The translations under genes were made by a program, and so were the position numbers. DNA of 48,927 bases, taken from Vicinamibacteraceae bacterium (lineage in GTDB: Bacteria; Planctomycetota; Phycisphaerae; Phycisphaerales; UBA5793). Where the stretch lies: NCBI GenBank assembly GCA_011525805.1, contig WYBR01000046.1, positions 1-48,927 of the forward strand, written 5' to 3'. The notes under the pieces were generated by a model, which made no database searches, was not told the DNA's origin, and saw nothing but the letters and a program-made list of their open reading frames with translations. Of the stretch, positions 1,165 to 31,267 are shown piece by piece. Each line of letters starts with the position of its first letter. Position 1 is the stretch's first letter.

Positions 1165-3477
1165 ATGTCTTCGGGTGTTGAGAGGGTGTCTGGTTCGCCC
1201 GCGGCGGGGTGCGAAGGGCCGGCAAGTGCTGTCGCAACCGCTCAGCGGCACCTTGAGGCTCGCCGCTGGGCCGAGGCGGCCGAGGCGCTGGCGCCCGTGC
1301 GTTCGCAAAGCCCCGGCCTCGAGATGCAGTGGCGCCTGGCGCGCAACTTTGCGGCGCTGGAGCGATGTCGTCGGGAGGTGTATGAGCGGCTGATCGCTTC
1401 GAGCGGATCGGGAACGTGCCGGCCCGCGCTCTCGCGCCGCGGGGAGGCGACGCTGATCCACTCGCTTCCGCCGCGCGAGGCGGTGGTGCTCTCGCCCGGC
1501 GGCGAGCCGGCCGAGGCGCTGCGGGCCACGCTCGCGGCCTTCGAGGATGACCTCCGCCGCGGGCGGTGCCTGGCGCTGTGCGGCGTGGGCGACGGCTATC
1601 TGCTCTCGCATCTCGCCGCGAACCCGCCGCCGCTCCAGCTCGGCCAGCAGCAGTGCATCCACATCATCGAGCCGCACGCGGAGGTGCTGCTTGGCGCGAT
1701 GATGATCCATCAATGGTGGGAGGAGGGCGGCCCGATCGCAGACCGGCGCTTCCAGTGGTGGGCTGGGCCGCAGTGGGCCGCGAAGATTCATGCCGCGCTC
1801 GATCGCGATCCCTACCTGCCCTACCCCGAGCGCCCGGTGAGATTGAGCGTGGTCGGCGAGGAGATTGATGCCGCGCTGCGCGAGGCGCTTGGCGCGCTCA
1901 TTGAAGGGGAGAAGCGGCTGGCGGAGCGGGTGGAGAAGCGATATGCACAATTCACCCCACGATTCGCAGAGCCTCATCGTGGGCGTGAAGGCATCCCACG
2001 ACTCGCGGAGCCTCATCGTGGGCGTGGGCCGCGCGTCCTGCTGCTCACCACGCGCTTCTCGACGGTGCTGCAACACTCGACGCGCGACCTCGCGGCCGCG
2101 TTCGAGCAACTCGGCTGGTCGGTGCGAGTGCCCATCGAGCCGAGCGACTGGCAGCGCAACTCGCGCCGCAACCTGCTGCGTCACCTTGCCGACTTCCAGC
2201 CTGATCTCGTTGTGCAGATCGACCACCTGCGCCACGAGCACCGGGGTCTCTTTCCGCCGCAGTTGCCTTTCGCGTGCTGGATTCAGGATGATCTGCCGAA
2301 TCTGACGCGTCGCGAGGCGGGCAACCAGATCGGCCCGCGCGATTTTGTGCTCACGACCACGGCGGCGGTGTACGAGCATGACTACGGCTACCCCGCGCGT
2401 CAGTGCCTTTACATGCCCAAGTGCACACGGCTGCCCGATCTCGATTCGATTCCCCGCGTCGAGGCGGCGGACGTGGTCTATGTCTCCAATGCGTCGGCGT
2501 CGGCCGAAGCGCTCATCGAGCAGGTCGCGGCTGAGCACGCGCGCCAGCCGGTCGTGGCGGAGTTGATCCGGGTCGCGGGCGCTGACCTGGTTGCGCGATA
2601 CGCGCGCGGCGAGGTGATCTTCACCGTCGGCGAGATCAGCGGCACTCTCAGACAGAGCATGGATCACCTCGGCATCCGGCCGACGGATGACGGCGCGTTT
2701 GCGATGCGACTTGCAGCGCGCCTCTTCGCCACGGTGAACAACGCGCTCTATCGCCAGCAGGCGCTGCGGTGGGCGGCGAGCGCCTGCGGGCGCCTCGGCC
2801 TGAGTCTCGGAGTCTACGGCGAGGGATGGGAGCAGCATCCGCATCTCGCCCCGTTCGCGCGCGGGCCGGTGAAGTACGGCCGCGATCTCGAAGCGCTCAC
2901 GCGCAGCGCGCGGATCAACCTCCAGATCGTTCCCTACATGTACCAGCATCAGCGGTGGTTCGACGGCGTCGCGGCGGGAGGGTTCTTCCTCATCCGCGCC
3001 CATCCGATGGACACGCTCGCGGGCGAAGTGGCCGAATTCATCGAGCGCTGCGTCGATCCTGCGGTCTCGACGCTCGCTGAGGCGCTTGGATCGCTTGACC
3101 CCGCGGCGCGGCAGGAGTTTGAGGCGATTCTGGAGCGCCGCGAGATGTTCGATGATCATCGCGGCGCCGATCCCGTGGCCGTCTACCGCCGGCACCAGCG
3201 CGAGGGGCGAAATTTCGTCTATGAACGGCCGGCGTTCCTTGCGGATGTGCGCTTTGACGATGAGGCGACGCTTGGGCGGCTGCTCGAAGCGTTCAGCGGC
3301 GACGAGGCGCGGCGGCGCGAGATCACCTTTGCCCAGCGGCGATTCGTCGAGGAGCACTTCACCTACGAGGCGGGGCTTCGCCGCGTGCTCGCCCGCATGA
3401 CCGACCTGATCCGGAGTGAAATCGACAGTGAGGCGCCGTGCCCGGCGCCCGCGGATGGAGTGAGCCGATGCGCCTGA
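1165..3477 (+). CDS. Large glycosyltransferase with CgeB/GT1-like C-terminal half
   Basis: A 770-residue cytosolic protein. The N-terminal ~280 residues resemble no family I can name but include a segment like the 6-hydroxymethylpterin/Rossmann-type domains found in bacterial glycan genes (GRCLALCGVGDGYLLSHLAA). From about residue 288 (RVLLLTTRFSTVLQHSTRDL) it looks like the DUF3880/CgeB arrangement. An N-terminal sugar-transferase lobe with IDHLRHEH and WIQDDLPNL is followed by a Glyco_trans_1_2-type lobe (LGVYGEGWEQHP, INLQIVPYMYQHQRWFDGVA). It heads a tightly packed plus-strand glycan cluster and its stop overlaps the next start by 10 bases. Residues 263-287 come from two tandem palindromic repeats. 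The start is uncertain because no Shine-Dalgarno is obvious. Confidence 0.7.
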   Translation: MSSGVERVSGSPAAGCEGPASAVATAQRHLEARRWAEAAEALAPVRSQSPGLEMQWRLARNFAALERCRREVYERLIASSGSGTCRPALSRRGEATLIHSLPPREAVVLSPGGEPAEALRATLAAFEDDLRRGRCLALCGVGDGYLLSHLAANPPPLQLGQQQCIHIIEPHAEVLLGAMMIHQWWEEGGPIADRRFQWWAGPQWAAKIHAALDRDPYLPYPERPVRLSVVGEEIDAALREALGALIEGEKRLAERVEKRYAQFTPRFAEPHRGREGIPRLAEPHRGRGPRVLLLTTRFSTVLQHSTRDLAAAFEQLGWSVRVPIEPSDWQRNSRRNLLRHLADFQPDLVVQIDHLRHEHRGLFPPQLPFACWIQDDLPNLTRREAGNQIGPRDFVLTTTAAVYEHDYGYPARQCLYMPKCTRLPDLDSIPRVEAADVVYVSNASASAEALIEQVAAEHARQPVVAELIRVAGADLVARYARGEVIFTVGEISGTLRQSMDHLGIRPTDDGAFAMRLAARLFATVNNALYRQQALRWAASACGRLGLSLGVYGEGWEQHPHLAPFARGPVKYGRDLEALTRSARINLQIVPYMYQHQRWFDGVAAGGFFLIRAHPMDTLAGEVAEFIERCVDPAVSTLAEALGSLDPAARQEFEAILERREMFDDHRGADPVAVYRRHQREGRNFVYERPAFLADVRFDDEATLGRLLEAFSGDEARRREITFAQRRFVEEHFTYEAGLRRVLARMTDLIRSEIDSEAPCPAPADGVSRCA
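1956..2022 (+). repeat. Two tandem in-frame palindromic repeat units
   Basis: Two 28-base units (1956-1983 and 1995-2022) repeat with a 39-base period, exactly 13 codons. Unit 1 has perfect arms CCCACGAT and ATCGTGGG around a 12-base loop; unit 2 has one arm mismatch. They sit inside the glycosyltransferase and encode (FA/LA)EPHRGR twice. Related units occur at 7527-7592 and 9127-9160. Confidence 0.85.
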
Positions 3478-4688
3478 GTGTCGTCATCGTGACGTGCAAC
3501 CGCCGGCAGGCGCTCGCGTCTACGCTGGATCGTCTCGCGGAGAACCCCTCGCTTCCGCACGACTCGATGGAGGTCCTCGTCGTTGACAACGGCTCGACGG
3601 ACGGCACGCGCGAGGCGGCGAAGCGCGATGACCTCGACATCCGCCTCATCGCCAGGCCGCGCAACGAAGGCGTGAGCGCCCGCAATCGCGCCTTCGCGGT
3701 GGCGCAGGGTGAGTATCTCCTGCTCGTTGACGATGACAGTTACCCGATCGACGACGCGGCCGCTCGCTCACTGGCGCACCTTGACGCGAATGCGAAATGC
3801 GCCGCGGTGGTGGGTCGTATCGAGTTGCCCGACGGGCGGCTCGAGGCCAGCGCCCTGCCGGGCGTCATCGCCAACGGGGCCGTGGTCCTGCGCAAGTCGG
3901 TGATTGACGAAGTGGGGGGCTTGCCGGCGGACTTCTTCCGTCAGGCCGAGGAGTACGACCTGAGTTTCCGAATGTGGAACGCGGGATACACCGTCGAGCG
4001 CTTCGAGGATCTGCTTTACCGGCACGAGAAGGTGGATGGAAACCGGCCGTCCGCGCTCATCCACCGCCTGGACATGCGCAACAACCTCGTCGTGGCGGAC
4101 CGGTATCTGCCGCGATCGCTGCGCCGTCCGGTGCGGGGCGACTGGGCGAAGCGCTATGCGCTGCTCGCGCGGCACGCGGGCTGCGGCGCGGCGGCGCTGC
4201 TCGGCCGGGCGGGGGCGCGGGCGGCGTGGTGCCGCGAGCGATTCGCACCTCGGCGGCCCCTCACGCCTGCCGCCTTCGAGTCGGTCTTCGGATATGAGGC
4301 GCAGGCGCGGGAGGTCGCCGCCTGGGCGCGGAGTCAACACCTGCGGCGCGTAGTCATCGCCGACTTCGGCAAGAACATCCACGCGACGTGGTCAGCGTGC
4401 CAAGCCGCTTCAGTGCGCGTGCTCGCGGTGGCGGACGATCATCCGGCGTATGCGGGCGCCTCGTATCGCGGCGTGCCGATCGTCGCCGGCCGGGCGGCGG
4501 CGGCGCTGGAGCCGGACGGCGTCGTCCTCGCCAACGTCAATCCGGCGCAGGTTGAGAGGCGGGCGCGGGAGTGCGCGATCGTCTTTGATGCGCCGGTTCT
4601 GACCCTCTGGCGGCCGCGCCTGCTCGCCGAGGGAGCGTCGCCGCCGGTGGATTCGGATTCGGGATTGTTCAGGTCGCAGGCCGCGTGA
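3468..4688 (+). CDS. Family 2 glycosyltransferase fused to a PglD-N-like domain
   Basis: A 406-residue protein. Residues 1-230 are a GT-A/GT2 catalytic domain: LSVVIVTCNRR start, VVDNGSTDGT nucleotide-binding motif, LLLVDDDSYP as the DxD equivalent, and EEYDLSFRMWNAGY as the ED/catalytic-base region. A basic linker follows. The last ~110 residues (RRVVIADFGKNIHATWSAC, ADDHPAYAGASYRGVPIV) form a small Rossmann-like fold resembling the N-terminal nucleotide-sugar-binding lobe of PglD-type acyltransferases, but without the left-handed helix that would acylate. The ATG at 3468 is chosen over an upstream ATG because GGAG precedes it by seven bases and it overlaps the previous stop. It probably transfers a sugar during surface-glycan assembly; donor and acceptor are unknown. 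Confidence 0.8.
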   Translation: MRLSVVIVTCNRRQALASTLDRLAENPSLPHDSMEVLVVDNGSTDGTREAAKRDDLDIRLIARPRNEGVSARNRAFAVAQGEYLLLVDDDSYPIDDAAARSLAHLDANAKCAAVVGRIELPDGRLEASALPGVIANGAVVLRKSVIDEVGGLPADFFRQAEEYDLSFRMWNAGYTVERFEDLLYRHEKVDGNRPSALIHRLDMRNNLVVADRYLPRSLRRPVRGDWAKRYALLARHAGCGAAALLGRAGARAAWCRERFAPRRPLTPAAFESVFGYEAQAREVAAWARSQHLRRVVIADFGKNIHATWSACQAASVRVLAVADDHPAYAGASYRGVPIVAGRAAAALEPDGVVLANVNPAQVERRARECAIVFDAPVLTLWRPRLLAEGASPPVDSDSGLFRSQAA

Positions 4689-4753
4689 TCCGATAATGCA
4701 CTCCGGATGCCCACTGGGCCGCGCTTGCGCTGCGCCCGCTCCCCGGAGGAACC

Positions 4754-6262
4754 ATGACTCGCGTCCTGCTCGTTCAGCCTTGGAACTTCCACGACGAAGG
4801 CGTGCGCGAGCACGACCTCTCGCGGCAGTGGCGCAACGGGCCCTACTCGCTGCTGCTCCTCGCCACGCAACTGCGCACGCACGGCCATGAGGTGCGCATC
4901 GTGGACATGATCCGCGATCTCGTCGTGATGCGCGGCGAGGTCGAGGCGTGTCTGGCGTCGCTGCGCGAGCAGATCCACGACTTCAAGCCCGAGATCATCG
5001 GCTTCGGATTCTTCTCCATTCACTACTTCGAAGTGCAGCGGGCGGTCGCGGCGGCGCGAGCGGCGTGCGCGGAGATCGGCCTCAAGCCGCTCTTCATCGC
5101 CGGCGGCATTCACGCCTCCACCGAGCCGCACAAGACCATCGAGGAACTCGGCTTCGACTATTCCTTCAAGGGTGAAGCGGACCTCGGCATCGTCGAACTC
5201 GCCGACGGGGTGAAGCCGATCACGGTGCGCGGCGTCGTCGGGCGCACTTCGCTCATGCCCTCGACCGGCGATGAGGTCAAACCGCTCGACTCGCTGCCCT
5301 TCCCCGACTGGTCGCTGTGCGACTACCGCTTCTACGCCCATCCGACGTATGCGCGCATGAGCATCCGCAAGACGAGCAGCCTGGACATGATCATGGGCCG
5401 CGGCTGCGTCTACAAGTGCGCTTTCTGCGCCTACAACGCCTTGTCGGCCGTGCGATTCTACAGCGCCGAGTACCTCGTCGAGCAGATGGAGTACATGCAC
5501 CGGCAGTTCGGCAACTCCGCCGTCTACTTCACCGACAGCACGATCGGCAACAACCGCAAACTCATCCGCGAGATGTGCGAACTGATGCTGCGGCGCGGCA
5601 CGCACACGCGCGTCGAGTGGTACGCCAACATCCGGCCCAACCAGGTGAGTGAGGAATCGCTCAAACTCATGTGGCGCGCGGGGTGCCGATACCTCTTCTA
5701 CGGCTTTGAGTCGGGCAGTCAGCGCGTGCTCGACCTGATGGTTAAGAAGTGCCCCGTCGAGGCGAACTACGAGGCGGCGGAGTTGCACAACCGGCTGCAC
5801 TTCCCGTATCACGCGAGCATGCTCCTGGGCTATCCGGGCGAGCGGGAGGAGGACATTGAGGCGTCGTTCGAGTTTCTCCGCCGCACCCAGCCGCCGAGCA
5901 TCGGCGTGAACTGGTACGTGCCGCTGCCGGGCAGCCCGGACTACGACAAACTCCGGGCCGAGGGCGTAATCAACACGGACGATCCGCAGGAGTGGCGGCG
6001 CATCGGCGAGGTGAACAACTGCCGCGTCTACGCCGATGTGCCCGAGGAGCGGTTCCGGCAACTCTTCAAGCAGATGGAGCGGCTGGCGTACGTCGAGATC
6101 GCGCGCTCGCCTTCGCGCGCCGCGTGGGGGTGCATCAGTCCGCCGCAGAGTGAAGCGCCGCAGCCGGGTGAGAACGATCGCGCGGTGGAGGCGATCGTCG
6201 AGGCGGCCCGCAGCCGCGCGACCTACGGCACGACGCCCGTCGAACTGCGCCAGAGCGCCTGA
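4754..6262 (+). CDS. B12-binding domain radical SAM enzyme
   Basis: A 502-residue protein with two recognisable parts. Residues 1-165 are a cobalamin-binding Rossmann domain (VLLVQPWNF, GHEVRIVDM, IIGFGFFSIH, FIAGGIHAS). From about residue 200 there is a radical SAM TIM barrel whose cluster motif CVYKCAFC starts near residue 218; the three cysteines would bind a [4Fe-4S] cluster coordinating S-adenosylmethionine. Later barrel motifs include YFTDSTIGNNRKL, YGFESGSQRVL and LLGYPGEREEDI. Such enzymes usually methylate unactivated carbon or rearrange substrates. Between glycosyltransferases it most likely modifies a sugar or lipid carrier, which is inference. A GGAGG site lies just before the ATG. 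Confidence 0.9.
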   Translation: MTRVLLVQPWNFHDEGVREHDLSRQWRNGPYSLLLLATQLRTHGHEVRIVDMIRDLVVMRGEVEACLASLREQIHDFKPEIIGFGFFSIHYFEVQRAVAAARAACAEIGLKPLFIAGGIHASTEPHKTIEELGFDYSFKGEADLGIVELADGVKPITVRGVVGRTSLMPSTGDEVKPLDSLPFPDWSLCDYRFYAHPTYARMSIRKTSSLDMIMGRGCVYKCAFCAYNALSAVRFYSAEYLVEQMEYMHRQFGNSAVYFTDSTIGNNRKLIREMCELMLRRGTHTRVEWYANIRPNQVSEESLKLMWRAGCRYLFYGFESGSQRVLDLMVKKCPVEANYEAAELHNRLHFPYHASMLLGYPGEREEDIEASFEFLRRTQPPSIGVNWYVPLPGSPDYDKLRAEGVINTDDPQEWRRIGEVNNCRVYADVPEERFRQLFKQMERLAYVEIARSPSRAAWGCISPPQSEAPQPGENDRAVEAIVEAARSRATYGTTPVELRQSA

Positions 6263-6288
6263 ACCAGATCAGCACGGAGGCTGAAGAC

Positions 6289-7086
6289 ATGATCACCAGA
6301 GCAGAGCCGGGCGTTAAAGAGTCGATTGCGATAGCGCCGCATCGCTGGAGTCTGAGCGATCGCGAGTCGCTTGAAGCCCTGCGACAGAAGTGGCAGACCG
6401 TCCCCGCGGCCGCGGATGGCCGCGTGAGCACCGCCGATCTCGCGTCGATGACCGATGCACAGGTCGTGCGCTTCTGGGAGGAGCAGGTGCGGCAGAGCAC
6501 GACCGGCGAGAACTACACCGTGCGCGGCTGGTACCACGACCTCTACAGAGATGCATTGCGCGGCAAGCGCGTGCTTGACGTCGGAGCCGGCATGGGCATC
6601 GACGCCCTGACCTTCGCCAGGCACGGGGCCGAGGTGACGCTGCTGGACATCGTGCCCTCGAACGTCGCGCACACGAAGCGCCTCGCGCGGCTGCTGGGCC
6701 TGCAAAGCGCCGCGTCCTTCCTGATGGAAGACCTTGATTCGCTCAAAGCGCTGCGGCGCGATTACGACGTGATCTGGTGCCAGGGATCGCTCATCAACGC
6801 TCCCTTTGACTTTGTGCGGGCGGAGGTGCAGGCGCTGCTCGATCACTTGCCCGTTGGCGGGCGCTGGATCGAACTGGCGTACCCGAGGCAGCGCTGGGAG
6901 CGCGAGGGACGCTTGCCCTTTGAGAAGTGGGGTGAGAAGACGGATGGCGAGGGAACACCTTGGGTCGAGTGGTATGACCTCGAGAAGTTGCGGGCGGCGC
7001 TGGCGCCGGCGCGATTCGACGTCGTGCTCCACTTCAACTTTCACAACGACGACTTCAACTGGTTTGACCTTGTGCGCCGCGCGTGA
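6289..7086 (+). CDS. Class I SAM-dependent methyltransferase
   Basis: A 265-residue methyltransferase. The S-adenosylmethionine motif I is VLDVGAGMGIDALTFA near residue 97, followed by the acidic strand LLDIVPSN that binds the ribose and a post-motif YDVIWCQGSLI. The C-terminal part includes GRWIELAYPRQRW, seen in small-molecule or glycan methyltransferases. A GGAGG ribosome site precedes the ATG and the gap from the radical SAM gene is only 26 bases, so co-transcription is likely. The methyl acceptor cannot be told from sequence; a sugar hydroxyl or carboxyl in the cluster product is a reasonable guess. Confidence 0.8.
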   Translation: MITRAEPGVKESIAIAPHRWSLSDRESLEALRQKWQTVPAAADGRVSTADLASMTDAQVVRFWEEQVRQSTTGENYTVRGWYHDLYRDALRGKRVLDVGAGMGIDALTFARHGAEVTLLDIVPSNVAHTKRLARLLGLQSAASFLMEDLDSLKALRRDYDVIWCQGSLINAPFDFVRAEVQALLDHLPVGGRWIELAYPRQRWEREGRLPFEKWGEKTDGEGTPWVEWYDLEKLRAALAPARFDVVLHFNFHNDDFNWFDLVRRA

Positions 7087-7090
7087 AGGC

Positions 7091-7129
7091 GAACCACAGA
7101 AGCACAGAGAGCACTGAGGGCGCACAGAG
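7091..7129. repeat. Interspersed 'ACCACAGA...CACAGAG' repeat
   Basis: This purine-rich stretch is built of irregular CACAGAG units (ACCACAGAAGCACAGAGAG, then CACTGAGGG and CACAGAG). It fills the gap between two methyltransferase genes and touches the GTG start of the second. It resembles the 'cacagag...cagagg' elements I recall scattered through planctomycete genomes. A related but different composite is at 47619-47718. Confidence 0.55.
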
Positions 7130-8064
7130 TGAGTCATGCTGATCTTCAAAGCGAAGCGCGGATCGCGAACGAACGTCGCTCGAATCCGAGACCGCTTGCG
7201 CCTTCGCATTCCGCCGCGCGTCTGCACGAGCGCCTGGGATTTTCCGAAGCGTTCATCCCGCCCTCGTTGGATTGCTCGCGCCCGCTGCATGAATGGCGCA
7301 TGGAGGAGAACGACTCCCCGATTCTGCGCTACCTCTGGCGCTGCGCCCGCCCGCGGCGGCACCTCGAGTTCGGCACGTGGCAAGGACGCGGCGCGCTGGA
7401 CTGTCTCGAATCGTGTGATGCGACGGTCTGGACGATCAACCTGCGCGAGGGCGAGGCTGATGCGCAGGGCCGCTGGGCATACGACGCCTGGCTCGATGAG
7501 TTTGAAGCACCGGAACCCGCCCACATCCACGATGGGCGAGACTTCGAGCGAATCGTGGCGTGCGTCGGCGATGAGGCTCCGCGAATCGTGGGATGCCCTC
7601 CCGCATCCCCCTCCCTCATCACCCGCACCGCGCGCAACGGCCGGACCGTCGTCCGCACCGATGCGCTCGGCGCCATCGGCCGCCTCGTTCACGAAGCGGG
7701 CCTTGGACACCGCCTCTGCCAGATCTATTGCGACAGCCGCGCGTGGGACGGCTCCAACTTTCCCGCCGGCTTCTTTGACAGCGCCCTGATCGACGGCGGG
7801 CACGCGGCCGATGTGGTGCGCAGCGACACGCTCAACGCGCTGCGGCTCGTGCGAAGCGGCGGGCTGATCCTCTGGCACGATTACTGCCCGGATGTGAAAG
7901 CGCAGGAACTGTGCCCCTCGATCCGCGGCGTCGTCGAGGCGATGAGCGAACTCGCGCCGGCGATCGATCGCTGCTGCCGCGACTGGTTCTGGATTGAGCC
8001 GTCCTGGCTGCTGCTGGGCGTGCGGAATGACCGGGCGCTGAACGAGGCGGAGATGGGCCGATGA
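7129..8064 (+). CDS. Methyltransf_24-like SAM methyltransferase
   Basis: Up to 311 residues. The SAM motif is LEFGTWQGRGALDCLE with an aspartate-free second strand VWTINLREG. The catalytic-side signature ALIDGGHAADVVRSD followed by GGLILWHDYCPD is typical of the Methyltransf_24/TylF-like group, where ID.GH and DDY/HDY hold a metal and the acceptor. A palindromic repeat lies in frame in the middle (about residues 133-155), breaking the usual spacing of the fold. The GTG at 7129 lies inside an interspersed repeat; an ATG at 7303 (MEENDSP) could be the true start. The 3' end overlaps the next gene by ATGA, so the two are translationally coupled. Confidence 0.7.
   Translation: MSHADLQSEARIANERRSNPRPLAPSHSAARLHERLGFSEAFIPPSLDCSRPLHEWRMEENDSPILRYLWRCARPRRHLEFGTWQGRGALDCLESCDATVWTINLREGEADAQGRWAYDAWLDEFEAPEPAHIHDGRDFERIVACVGDEAPRIVGCPPASPSLITRTARNGRTVVRTDALGAIGRLVHEAGLGHRLCQIYCDSRAWDGSNFPAGFFDSALIDGGHAADVVRSDTLNALRLVRSGGLILWHDYCPDVKAQELCPSIRGVVEAMSELAPAIDRCCRDWFWIEPSWLLLGVRNDRALNEAEMGR
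7527..7592 (-). repeat. Two palindromic repeat units, inverted relative to 1956-2022
   Basis: On the minus strand, 7592-7565 matches the unit at 1992-2019 at 27 of 28 bases. The adjoining 7558-7527 has arms CCACGAT and ATCGTGG around a loop matching the longer unit at 9127-9160. Both lie in frame inside the methyltransferase. The outer arm of the 7563-7592 unit has decayed. Confidence 0.75.
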
Positions 8065-9188
8065 CTGTTCCATCCCCTTCGAGTCCGTATCTCTCCATCG
8101 TCGCCACCGCTCGCAACGACAACCACGGCGGCGACCTCCTGCGCCGCATGCAACTGTTCATCGACGGCCTGATCGAGCAGTGCCATCGCTATTGCCTGCC
8201 GGCTGAACTCGTGCTTGTCGAATGGAATCCGCCGGATGATCGGGCGCGACTGGCGGAAGCGCTCGACTGGTCGCGCGCGGGCGGATGTATTGACGTGCGG
8301 ATCATCGAAGTGCCGCCGGTCGTGCACGGCCGCCTCAAGCACGCCGATCGGCTGCCGCTCTTTCAGATGATCGGCAAGAACGTGGGCATCCGCCGCGCCC
8401 GCGGGACGTTCATCCTCGCAACCAACATCGACATTCTTTTCTCGAACGAACTCATTGCGCACCTCGCGCGGCAGCGACTTCGGCCGGATCGGATGTATCG
8501 GCTGGACCGATGGGACGTGCAGCCCGACGTGCCTATCGACGCGAGCGTTGATGAGCGACTCGCGTGGTGCCGATCGCACTGCATTCGCCTCGAAGGGCGC
8601 GACGGGACGCGCGATCTGCGCACCGGACGGTTTCACCGCATCTACTGGGAACCGACGTGGGGCGTCCGCCTGCTCGAGGCGCTTCAGGAGGCCGGCCTCG
8701 TGCCGGTCGTGACGCGAAAGCGCCTCCACCTCAACGCGTGCGGCGATTTCACCCTCATGCACCGGTTGATGTGGGAGCGCGTCCGCGGCTATCCGGAAAT
8801 GGAGATGTACTCGATGCATCTCGACTCGGTCCTCTGCACCGCGGCACACTTCGCGGGCGCGCGCGAGCGCATCTGGCGCGATCCGCTGAGCATGTTCCAC
8901 ATCGAGCACGGCACGGGCTCGGGCTTCACTCCCGAGGGGCAGGCGGCGCTCGATGCGAGGCTCGCGGCCGCGGGGATTCCCCAGTTGAGCCACACCGAGT
9001 TTCACCGGTGGGCGCTGGAGATGCGCCGCACGAGAGCGCCGATGATCTTCAACGATGAGCAGTGGGGGATGCGCGGGGAGGCGCTGCGCGAGACGGTGAT
9101 CGGGGGGAGGGGACGCGGAAAGGCACCCCACGATTCGCTCGAAGACTCGCTCATCGTGGGCGTGGATCGATCTTCACATGCGGCATGA
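8061..9188 (+). CDS. GT-A fold glycosyltransferase-like protein
   Basis: A 375-residue protein beginning with a GT-A nucleotide-binding strand (LSIVATARNDNHGG). It continues with LVLVEWNPPDD, the helix KNVGIRRARGTFILATN and the DxD-like NIDILFS, which should bind a divalent metal and nucleotide sugar. A later segment (WERVRGYPEMEMYSMHLDS) matches the acceptor/catalytic-base region of family 2-like enzymes. The start overlaps the upstream stop (ATGA). The last ~25 residues (APHDSLEDSLIVGVDRSSHAA) are encoded almost entirely by a palindromic repeat, so the repeat has evidently supplied a new C-terminus. Role in glycan assembly is inferred from context. Confidence 0.75.
   Translation: MTVPSPSSPYLSIVATARNDNHGGDLLRRMQLFIDGLIEQCHRYCLPAELVLVEWNPPDDRARLAEALDWSRAGGCIDVRIIEVPPVVHGRLKHADRLPLFQMIGKNVGIRRARGTFILATNIDILFSNELIAHLARQRLRPDRMYRLDRWDVQPDVPIDASVDERLAWCRSHCIRLEGRDGTRDLRTGRFHRIYWEPTWGVRLLEALQEAGLVPVVTRKRLHLNACGDFTLMHRLMWERVRGYPEMEMYSMHLDSVLCTAAHFAGARERIWRDPLSMFHIEHGTGSGFTPEGQAALDARLAAAGIPQLSHTEFHRWALEMRRTRAPMIFNDEQWGMRGEALRETVIGGRGRGKAPHDSLEDSLIVGVDRSSHAA
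9127..9160 (+). repeat. Palindromic repeat forming the 3' end of a glycosyltransferase gene
   Basis: Perfect arms CCCACGAT (9127-9134) and ATCGTGGG (9153-9160) flank an 18-base loop. It is related to 1956-2022 and 7527-7592 and encodes HDSLEDSLIVGV. The same HDS(R/Q)SLIVGV reading also stays open through the two copies at 1956-2022, though there it is not the coding frame. Confidence 0.85.
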
Positions 9189-29921: not shown

Positions 29922-31267
29922 ACCGGTCCTCCGCCAGCATCCTCGTCGTGGACGACGAGTTCTCCATCCGCGACTCGCTCTACAACTGGTTCCGCAAGGA
30001 CGGCTACATCGTCCGCGCCGTCGCCAACGCCGCGGACGCCCTCGCCGCCATGAAGGAAGCCCCCGCCGACGTCGCGATCATCGACATCAAGATGCCCGGC
30101 ATGGACGGCATCCAACTCCAGAGCCTCCTTCACGAGTCAAACCCCCGCACCGCCGTCATCATGATCACCGCCTTCGCCACCGTCGAGTCTGCGGTGAAGT
30201 CGCTCAAGCAGGGCGCGTTCGACTACGTCACCAAGCCCATCGACCCCGACGAACTGAGCCACCTCGTCCGCCGCGCGGTCGATCAGATGCGGCTCGAGGC
30301 GGAGAACCTGCAACTTCGCGAGACGATCGACGGGCTCGTCGCGGTGGACGCCATCGTGGGCGAAAGCCCCGCTATCCGCCGCGTCATGGAACTCGTCCAG
30401 CGCGTCGCTCCGACGGACGTGACGGTGCTCATCCAGGGCGAAAGCGGCACGGGCAAGGAACTCATCGCCCGCGCCATCCACGCCAACAGCCGGCGGCGCT
30501 ACATGCCCATCGTCCCCGTCAACTGCGGCGCGGTGCCCGAGAACCTCCTCGAAAGCGAGCTCTTCGGCCATGAGAAAGGCGCGTTCACCGGCGCCGACCG
30601 CAAGCGCCGGGGCAAGATCGAAATGGCGCAAGGCGGCACGCTCTTTCTCGACGAGGTCGGCGCCATCAGCCCCAAGATGCAGGTCGAACTCCTCCGCGCC
30701 CTCGAATCCAGGGAGTTCCACCGCGTCGGCGGTATGGAGTCGGTGCACGTCGATTTCCGCGTCATCTGCGCCACCAACGAGGATCTTCAGCAGGCCGTCG
30801 CCGAGGGCCGCTTTCGCGAAGACTTCTACTACCGCATCAACGTCTTCACCATCGAGGCGCCGCCCCTGCGGGCGCGGGCCACCGACATCCCGCTTCTCGC
30901 CCGGCACTTCCTCCAGCGCTTCGCGCAGCAGATGGACAAGCGCATCACCGAAATCAGCCCCGAGGCGATGAAACTTCTCGTCGAGTACGACTGGCCCGGC
31001 AACGTGCGCGAACTGTCCAACGCGATCGAGCGCGCCATGGTGGTCGGCCGCCCCCCGGCGATCCGCGCCGAGGACTTTCCCATGCGCGCCGCCCGGGAGT
31101 CCTCGCTCCCCGCCAACGGCAGCGCCGCCCTCGAATCAGTCGAACGTCATCACATCGCCGAGGTCCTCCGGCGAAGCGAGTGGAACGTCACCCAGGCCGC
31201 GAGAATCCTCGGCATCGACCGTGTGACGGTGTACAACAAGATCAAGAAGTTCGGCCTGCGCCAATGA
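29918..31267 (+). CDS. NtrC-family sigma54-dependent response regulator
   Basis: A 449-residue protein. Residues 1-120 are a receiver domain with phosphoacceptor Asp56 (AIIDIKMPGMDG), the conserved T84 (MITAF) and K106 (VTKP). The AAA+ domain has Walker A GESGTGKE (174-181), the sigma54-contacting loop GAFTGA (221-226), Walker B TLFLDEVG and the DWPGNVREL sensor II region. A Fis-type helix-turn-helix (VTQAARILGIDRVTVYNKIK) closes it. All parts needed to drive a -24/-12 promoter are intact, and one such promoter lies upstream of the divergent cytochrome operon. Confidence 0.96.
   Translation: MNRSSASILVVDDEFSIRDSLYNWFRKDGYIVRAVANAADALAAMKEAPADVAIIDIKMPGMDGIQLQSLLHESNPRTAVIMITAFATVESAVKSLKQGAFDYVTKPIDPDELSHLVRRAVDQMRLEAENLQLRETIDGLVAVDAIVGESPAIRRVMELVQRVAPTDVTVLIQGESGTGKELIARAIHANSRRRYMPIVPVNCGAVPENLLESELFGHEKGAFTGADRKRRGKIEMAQGGTLFLDEVGAISPKMQVELLRALESREFHRVGGMESVHVDFRVICATNEDLQQAVAEGRFREDFYYRINVFTIEAPPLRARATDIPLLARHFLQRFAQQMDKRITEISPEAMKLLVEYDWPGNVRELSNAIERAMVVGRPPAIRAEDFPMRAARESSLPANGSAALESVERHHIAEVLRRSEWNVTQAARILGIDRVTVYNKIKKFGLRQ

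Follow-up and report, generated by a model that had tools for sequence, protein, structure and literature searches.

How can short palindromes come to lie inside several protein-coding genes without interrupting any of them? The question arises from a 48,927-nt stretch of bacterial DNA, hereafter called the window (Vicinamibacteraceae bacterium, GTDB lineage Planctomycetota, Phycisphaerae, Phycisphaerales, UBA5793; assembly GCA_011525805.1, contig WYBR01000046.1), in which the original prediction had described five related palindromic units within three glycan genes. Rickettsia offers the best-known examples of palindromes that are read in frame as part of genes, and we know of no enzyme identified as the mover of the Rickettsia elements. 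Our data reveal that the units of the window belong to a family of repetitive extragenic palindromes (REPs) that is dispersed through the genome and comprises two subtypes, A and B. We consider it very probable that they represent a family of one planctomycete genus linked to a REP-associated tyrosine transposase (RAYT), and that its copies sometimes become coding.

A dispersed family with two subtypes

Subtype A (CCCACGATTCGC-NNAGC-CTCATCGTGGG) measures 28 nt and has a 12-nt loop; subtype B (CCCACGATTCGC-TCGAAGACTCG-CTCATCGTGGG) measures 34 nt and has an 18-nt loop, both loop lengths being as predicted. The hairpin stem CCCACGAT/ATCGTGGG is lengthened by CAY/GTG pairing over a one-base bulge (in 99 of 107 copies, position -1 is C or T and faces a G at +2), and a sequence close to RANG precedes it. 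The position-wise consensus of 73 A and 33 B copies, collected by similarity to a consensus, gives a conserved block that consists of approximately RA(C/T)GCAY, the unit and CGTG.

The window is contig C24 of the source genome (G000), a draft of 4.54 Mb in 138 contigs that is ~97% complete. Searched with the 28-nt and 34-nt patterns at up to three mismatches, this genome holds 61 A copies (29 forward, 32 reverse) and 27 B copies, and the same patterns reversed, which served as control, matched 0 times for either subtype; the five units of the window are therefore not a product of chance. The whole-genome search in both orientations that had been proposed for these units puts their number in G000 at ~89.

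The search was extended to 61 genomes, namely G000, its four congeners G001 to G004 and 56 others of the family and order, with the genus represented by five genomes and by draft assemblies. The number of A copies is 55 in G002, 5 in G001 and 2 each in G003 and G004, that of B copies 22 in G002, 4 in G004, 1 in G003 and 0 in G001, and the 56 other genomes yielded a single match with three mismatches. Across 84,980 species, in a scan that may leave out the source genome itself, the exact A pattern matched only an uncultured planctomycete (PLA5), Phycisphaerales bacterium UBA5793 and Planctomycetota KLAP200, which correspond to G002, G001 and G004 and all belong to one genus. Within the set of genomes searched, no other genus shares the family.

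Single units make up 46 of the 64 sites in G000. Where units adjoin each other, 21 neighbours share the same orientation and 4 are inverted; direct neighbours usually follow a period of 38-40 nt, and the arrays mix A and B. Two of the four inverted pairs adjoin the RAYT gene described below.

Position of the units relative to genes

Based on the calls of our own small codon-model gene finder, which was trained on the fetched flanks (~430 kb) and is not a curated annotation, 48 of the 64 clusters of units in G000 (~75%) are intergenic, 5 overlap a gene end and 11 lie inside a gene, 8 of the latter being accepted as secure. The flanking DNA is 88% coding, and the avoidance of genes is pronounced (48 of 64 intergenic, 8 inside; P ~4e-44). 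The secure intragenic sites are found in the three genes of the window, in pheT, nuoJ, a metH-type gene, a hydantoinase A/B-type (hyuAB-like) gene and a gene at C77:134094; pheT carries two tandem units, and argS of G001 carries one (the names given to the eight sites in G000 were read from the translations and do not rest on a family search). The idea that a short palindromic element, reminiscent of those of Rickettsia, had entered genes in frame is supported by these sites, whereas a restriction to glycan genes is rejected by the intragenic sites elsewhere and by the mainly intergenic position of the family.

Intragenic units are always in frame and add ~13 amino acids per copy, and their host genes include essential ones. 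The intact frames of pheT, metH and nuoJ suggest that the proteins with inserts are made and are functional. Five of the six frames are free of stop codons in A and likewise in B, so that survival in frame is easy without selection for the encoded peptide. In G002, 7 of 41 clusters lie inside genes, six of them at positions that match G000. In a gene on contig C106 of G002 (L085:7294-7999), the C-terminus is made up of three A units in tandem, of which two are variant (APHDSQSLIGN); the matching site of G000 has a single unit beside a gene end.

All five units of the window were located at the predicted positions or 1-2 bases from them (Table 1), and a scan of the whole window agreed with the prediction in finding none beyond these five; one more exact CCCACGAT, at 30353, is isolated and not part of a unit. 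The units are in both orientations and in different frames, and the genes stay open across them, as had been proposed: those at 1956 and 1995 read PRFAEPHRGR, that at 9127 reads HDSLEDSLIVGV, and across 7526-7592 the units are read in reverse orientation. In the unit at 7565-7592 only one of the predicted arms is good, the other having decayed to TCGGCGAT, and no hairpin was obtained when this unit was folded. The DNA fold of 1949-1990, which comprises the first unit and its flanks, has a z of -4.7 and shows a longer, flank-extended stem. The second unit (1995-2022) probably came in as a copy of its own and not by simple duplication of the first, because the two differ at two positions and the second is nearer to a ACTCGCGG sub-variant at C41:17671. 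A Pfam search with the product of the gene at 8061-9188 gave no match. Three of the eight secure intragenic sites of G000 fall within one 7.2-kb glycan cluster (window 1165-9188), a concentration that has P ~4e-4 under random placement and was chosen post hoc.

Table 1. Palindromic units of the window and the genes that contain them (positions in the window; ORF, open reading frame)
Feature	Position	Strand	Evidence and remarks
Glycosyltransferase-like gene (Glyco_trans_1_2)	1165..3477	+	ORF; Pfam PF13524, E 3e-7; orthologs in G001-G004; two tandem A units in linker
Unit A1, 28 nt, 12-nt loop	1956..1983	+	Exact family match; reads PRFAEPHRGR; present in G002, absent in G001, G003 and G004
Unit A2	1995..2022	+	Family match; 39 nt after A1; extra copy relative to G002
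Methyltransf_24-type gene	7129..8064	+	ORF; PF13578, E 4e-11; reverse-oriented B unit plus decayed A unit
Unit B, 34 nt, 18-nt loop	7526..7559	-	7-bp perfect stem; fold -13.3 kcal/mol
Unit A, one arm decayed	7565..7592	-	Separated by a 5-nt spacer (CGCAC) from the B unit at 7526-7559
Glycan-cluster gene	8061..9188	+	ORF; B unit near C-terminus; orthologs 77-83% identical
Unit B	9127..9160	+	Reads HDSLEDSLIVGV; G002 ortholog with A-type sequence at the same place

Orthologs with and without units

Units were sought in six orthologous genes (those at 1165-3477, 7129-8064 and 8061-9188, PheT, NuoJ and MetH) of the three more distant congeners G001, G003 and G004, and none was found; in PheT, NuoJ and MetH they are present in G000 and G002. 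Nowhere in these distant orthologs did the same residues recur at the same positions. The clean absence that had been anticipated is seen, as far as length is concerned, in the gene at 7129-8064, in which the segment concerned measures 168 nt in G000, 129 nt in G002 and 78 nt in the three others; elsewhere the linker or tail has been remodelled as well. The corresponding segment of the gene at 1165-3477 comprises 141 nt in G000, 102 nt with one unit in G002 and 114 nt in the three others, where the sequence is unrelated, and that of the gene at 8061-9188 comprises 141 nt, 165 nt and 102-108 nt, respectively. All these length differences are multiples of three. The proposal that the unit at 9127 supplies a whole C-terminus was overstated, given that unit-free orthologs have a variable tail at this place with the same final Ala-Ala. 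Several orthologous sites of G000 and G002 differ in subtype (A or B) or in the number of units, as if units were replaced in place.

The transposase beside ispG

A search for an associated RAYT-type transposase had been recommended along with the prediction, and such a gene was found with units flanking it. Several Y1 transposases were detected in G000 by a Pfam PF01797 search; the intact RAYT-type gene (G000:C99:13268-13855, an open frame of 196 aa) adjoins ispG and lies between two groups of units, B+ A- A- and A+ B+ A-. Six of the 89 units of G000 are at most 700 nt away from this gene, compared to 0.04 expected (P ~4e-12), and three of three units in G003 and three of six in G004 are near its ortholog. 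In G002 (C42) the ortholog is 71% identical; one of its flanks carries A, A and B units, and the opposite flank has a partial B match where the contig ends. That of G004 (C34) is 62% identical, apparently intact and has units on both sides. The ortholog of G003 (C5, L116:1285-1850) is frameshifted and split over frames; units persist on both sides of it, in a genome that has three units only.

The HUH motif (H117-x-H119), W155 and the catalytic tyrosine Y176 do not vary among 8 relatives, and the Y motif reads YIxxHA in the three orthologs and is variable in more distant relatives. The protein matches the NCBIfam model REP_Tyr_transpos (E 1e-7 to 3e-9), and its predicted structure (mean pLDDT 75) has a Foldseek probability of 1.00 to both ISDra2 TnpA (2xma) and the REP-bound TnpA-REP 4er8, with modest TM-scores. 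It is a divergent RAYT of the HUH/Tyr type with a predicted TnpA-Y1 fold.

Hairpins are also present beside three related RAYTs (G005:C2, G000:C50 and G003:C21), these being the loci that were looked at. The RAYT at G000:C50, which is 38% identical, is flanked by two oppositely oriented copies of a different palindrome, CCGGGGC...GCCCCGG (L299:1448-1483 and L299:2062-2097), possibly a repeat family of its own.

Origin of the units and alternative explanations

The dispersal of the copies, their restriction to one genus, their association with a RAYT gene whose locus is conserved, residence in frame in several frames and the absence from outgroups carry the interpretation as a RAYT-associated REP family. 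The linkage points to the RAYT beside ispG as the probable mobilising enzyme. It would nick the hairpin in single-stranded DNA and move copies to new places, and new copies would often land directly beside an old copy in the same orientation, which would generate the arrays with a period of 38-40 nt. Most copies that arrive in genes would be purged. An intragenic copy would survive if the net gain or loss in length is divisible by three, if the linker or tail is tolerant and if the frame is among the five of six without a stop, and the encoded peptides would be tolerated by-products and not selected domains.

Several observations weigh against this interpretation. Mobilisation is deduced from linkage, and no transposition event was observed. 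The number of copies is not simply tied to an intact RAYT, as the gene of G004 is apparently intact in a genome with few units, and G001 carries 5 units without a close RAYT ortholog. The protein scores 31.7-36.9 bits with the curated model NF047646, for which the cut-off is 80, and we therefore speak of a divergent RAYT and do not claim the equivalog name; in G000 it also falls slightly under the Pfam cut-off. Neither in the gene at 1165-3477 nor in the C-terminal tail is the insertion clean, because neighbouring residues were replaced too. Finally, the majority of the examined G002 sites are common to G000, in a comparison in which the G000 stretches were mostly unit-bearing ones, so that recent movement is limited.

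The units could, on the one hand, be selected intergenic hairpins with a regulatory or RNA function, such as terminators or stabilisers of mRNA, for which the overlap with genes is secondary. They fold well as DNA or RNA, the sites of G000 and G002 are largely shared, and at common sites the units are 97% and the flanks 82% identical, although the unit figure is inflated because copies were picked by similarity, for which reason we do not use this difference as proof. However, copies in pheT, metH and nuoJ are ill-suited to a terminator role, a run of T after the unit is not conserved, subtype and number of units vary at common sites, and the tight linkage to a transposase would be left unexplained. 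A search of Rfam gave no match, by which a known RNA family is rejected, and we regard regulatory hairpins as an unlikely origin. On the other hand, and with about the same low likelihood, the units might be non-autonomous repeats moved by another enzyme, such as another IS200-type transposase, or spread by recombination between copies, with the RAYT beside ispG merely a host of insertions. G000 does contain several further Y1 transposases, and recombination may cause some growth of arrays, in which new copies appear beside old ones. Yet none of the other Y1 genes found with PF01797 has units close on both sides, judged by coordinates, and G000, G003 and G004 have the flanking layout in common at this one locus, the RAYTs of G003 and G004 being only ~60% identical to that of G000. 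By far the least credible alternative is an ordinary conserved protein or functional peptide motif that is palindromic in its DNA by coincidence. The frame HDSQ/LEDSLIVGV does recur in the gene at 8061-9188, in PheT, NuoJ and MetH, but identical DNA is translated in four or more frames and in either orientation, most copies lie outside genes and orthologs lack the units; a functional peptide is thus rejected.

Beyond a RAYT-associated REP family, a more specific scenario can be put forward tentatively, although we consider it rather doubtful. A distinct lineage of YIxxHA RAYTs might recognise a foot other than GTAG and add copies in the same orientation beside old ones, by which in-frame repeats of 13 codons would grow in essential genes and the enzyme would become a recurrent source of new protein linkers. 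If true, this would supply the step for which, to our knowledge, the Rickettsia palindromes have no known enzyme.

Comparison with known systems

The family resembles the REP/RAYT systems (REPtrons) of E. coli and Pseudomonas in its short hairpins, which occur in dozens of mainly intergenic copies and two subtypes, and in the flanked HUH/Tyr transposase gene with a TnpA-REP fold (PMC2817692, PMC6006769). It differs in its tag, as those systems have GTAG/GTGG at the hairpin foot and a YIxxNP-type catalytic motif in the enzyme, in place of approximately RANG before CAY and YIxxHA, and in its arrays, which are mostly direct rather than inverted. GTAG repeats flank RAYT genes, whereas CGTC repeats, which include RPE-4 and RPE-6 among the Rickettsia palindromic elements (RPEs), are reported to have no dedicated flanking transposase (PMC3733652). 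The units fall into neither superfamily: their consensus RA(C/T)GCAY-stem-CGTG lacks GTAG or GTGG at one hairpin foot, and a foot of CGTG/CACG together with a flanking RAYT separates them from repeats with a CGTC, TGTC or CCTC tag. REPINs are inverted REP doublets (PMC3116915) and are likewise linked to RAYTs, and inverted A/B doublets with a spacer of 17-18 nt adjoin our RAYT gene; the family as a whole does not consist predominantly of such doublets, with 46 of 64 sites single and 21 direct against 4 inverted neighbours. Because copies are mostly singlets or direct tandems, the inverted doublet is not evident as the mobile unit here.

Intragenic copies are known for both GTAG and CGTC repeats, and tRNA synthetase genes that bear REPs are reported as well (PMC3733652). 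The Rickettsia elements share with our family palindromic DNA in frame in unrelated genes, essential ones among them (PMC3733652), and in the three genes of the window, PheT, NuoJ and MetH the units are likewise in frame and absent in relatives; RPE-4 and RPE-6 differ in sequence, in their CGTC tag and in the lack of a flanking transposase. In O. terrae, Thauera and others, GTAG REPs, which are likewise of the RAYT type, occur inside functional genes (PMC3733652), but they differ in tag and sequence, and ours is a distinct family, found in a planctomycete genus. TnpA-Y1 class 3, known from Planctomycetes, Acidobacteria and Proteobacteria, is characterised by a Y----Q motif and a CnGA foot (PMC6006769), unlike the YIxxHA, WQ and approximate RANG found here; in common with our family, it provides planctomycete HUH transposases that are flanked by atypical high-copy hairpins. 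Judged by sequence features, the A/B family combines the REP/RAYT plan with an RPE-like entry into genes and is a variant in its tag, its direct arrays and its YIxxHA motif.

The diversity of planctomycete REP/RAYT systems thereby gains a family outside both described tag classes. This family enters genes in the fashion of the Rickettsia palindromes and has an adjoining candidate enzyme that is intact or broken in sister species, which makes the origin of such protein insertions directly testable.

A second dispersed repeat of ~128 nt (G000:C65:5535-5662, L197:5535-5662) has 35 matches in G000, often as inverted pairs 150-250 bp apart. It flanks other Y1 genes as terminal inverted repeats (G000:C101:20002, G003:C13:527350, G003:C11:150398, G004:C47:109825 and G001:C28:61160) and, together with them, resembles the TIRYT type (PMC3733652).

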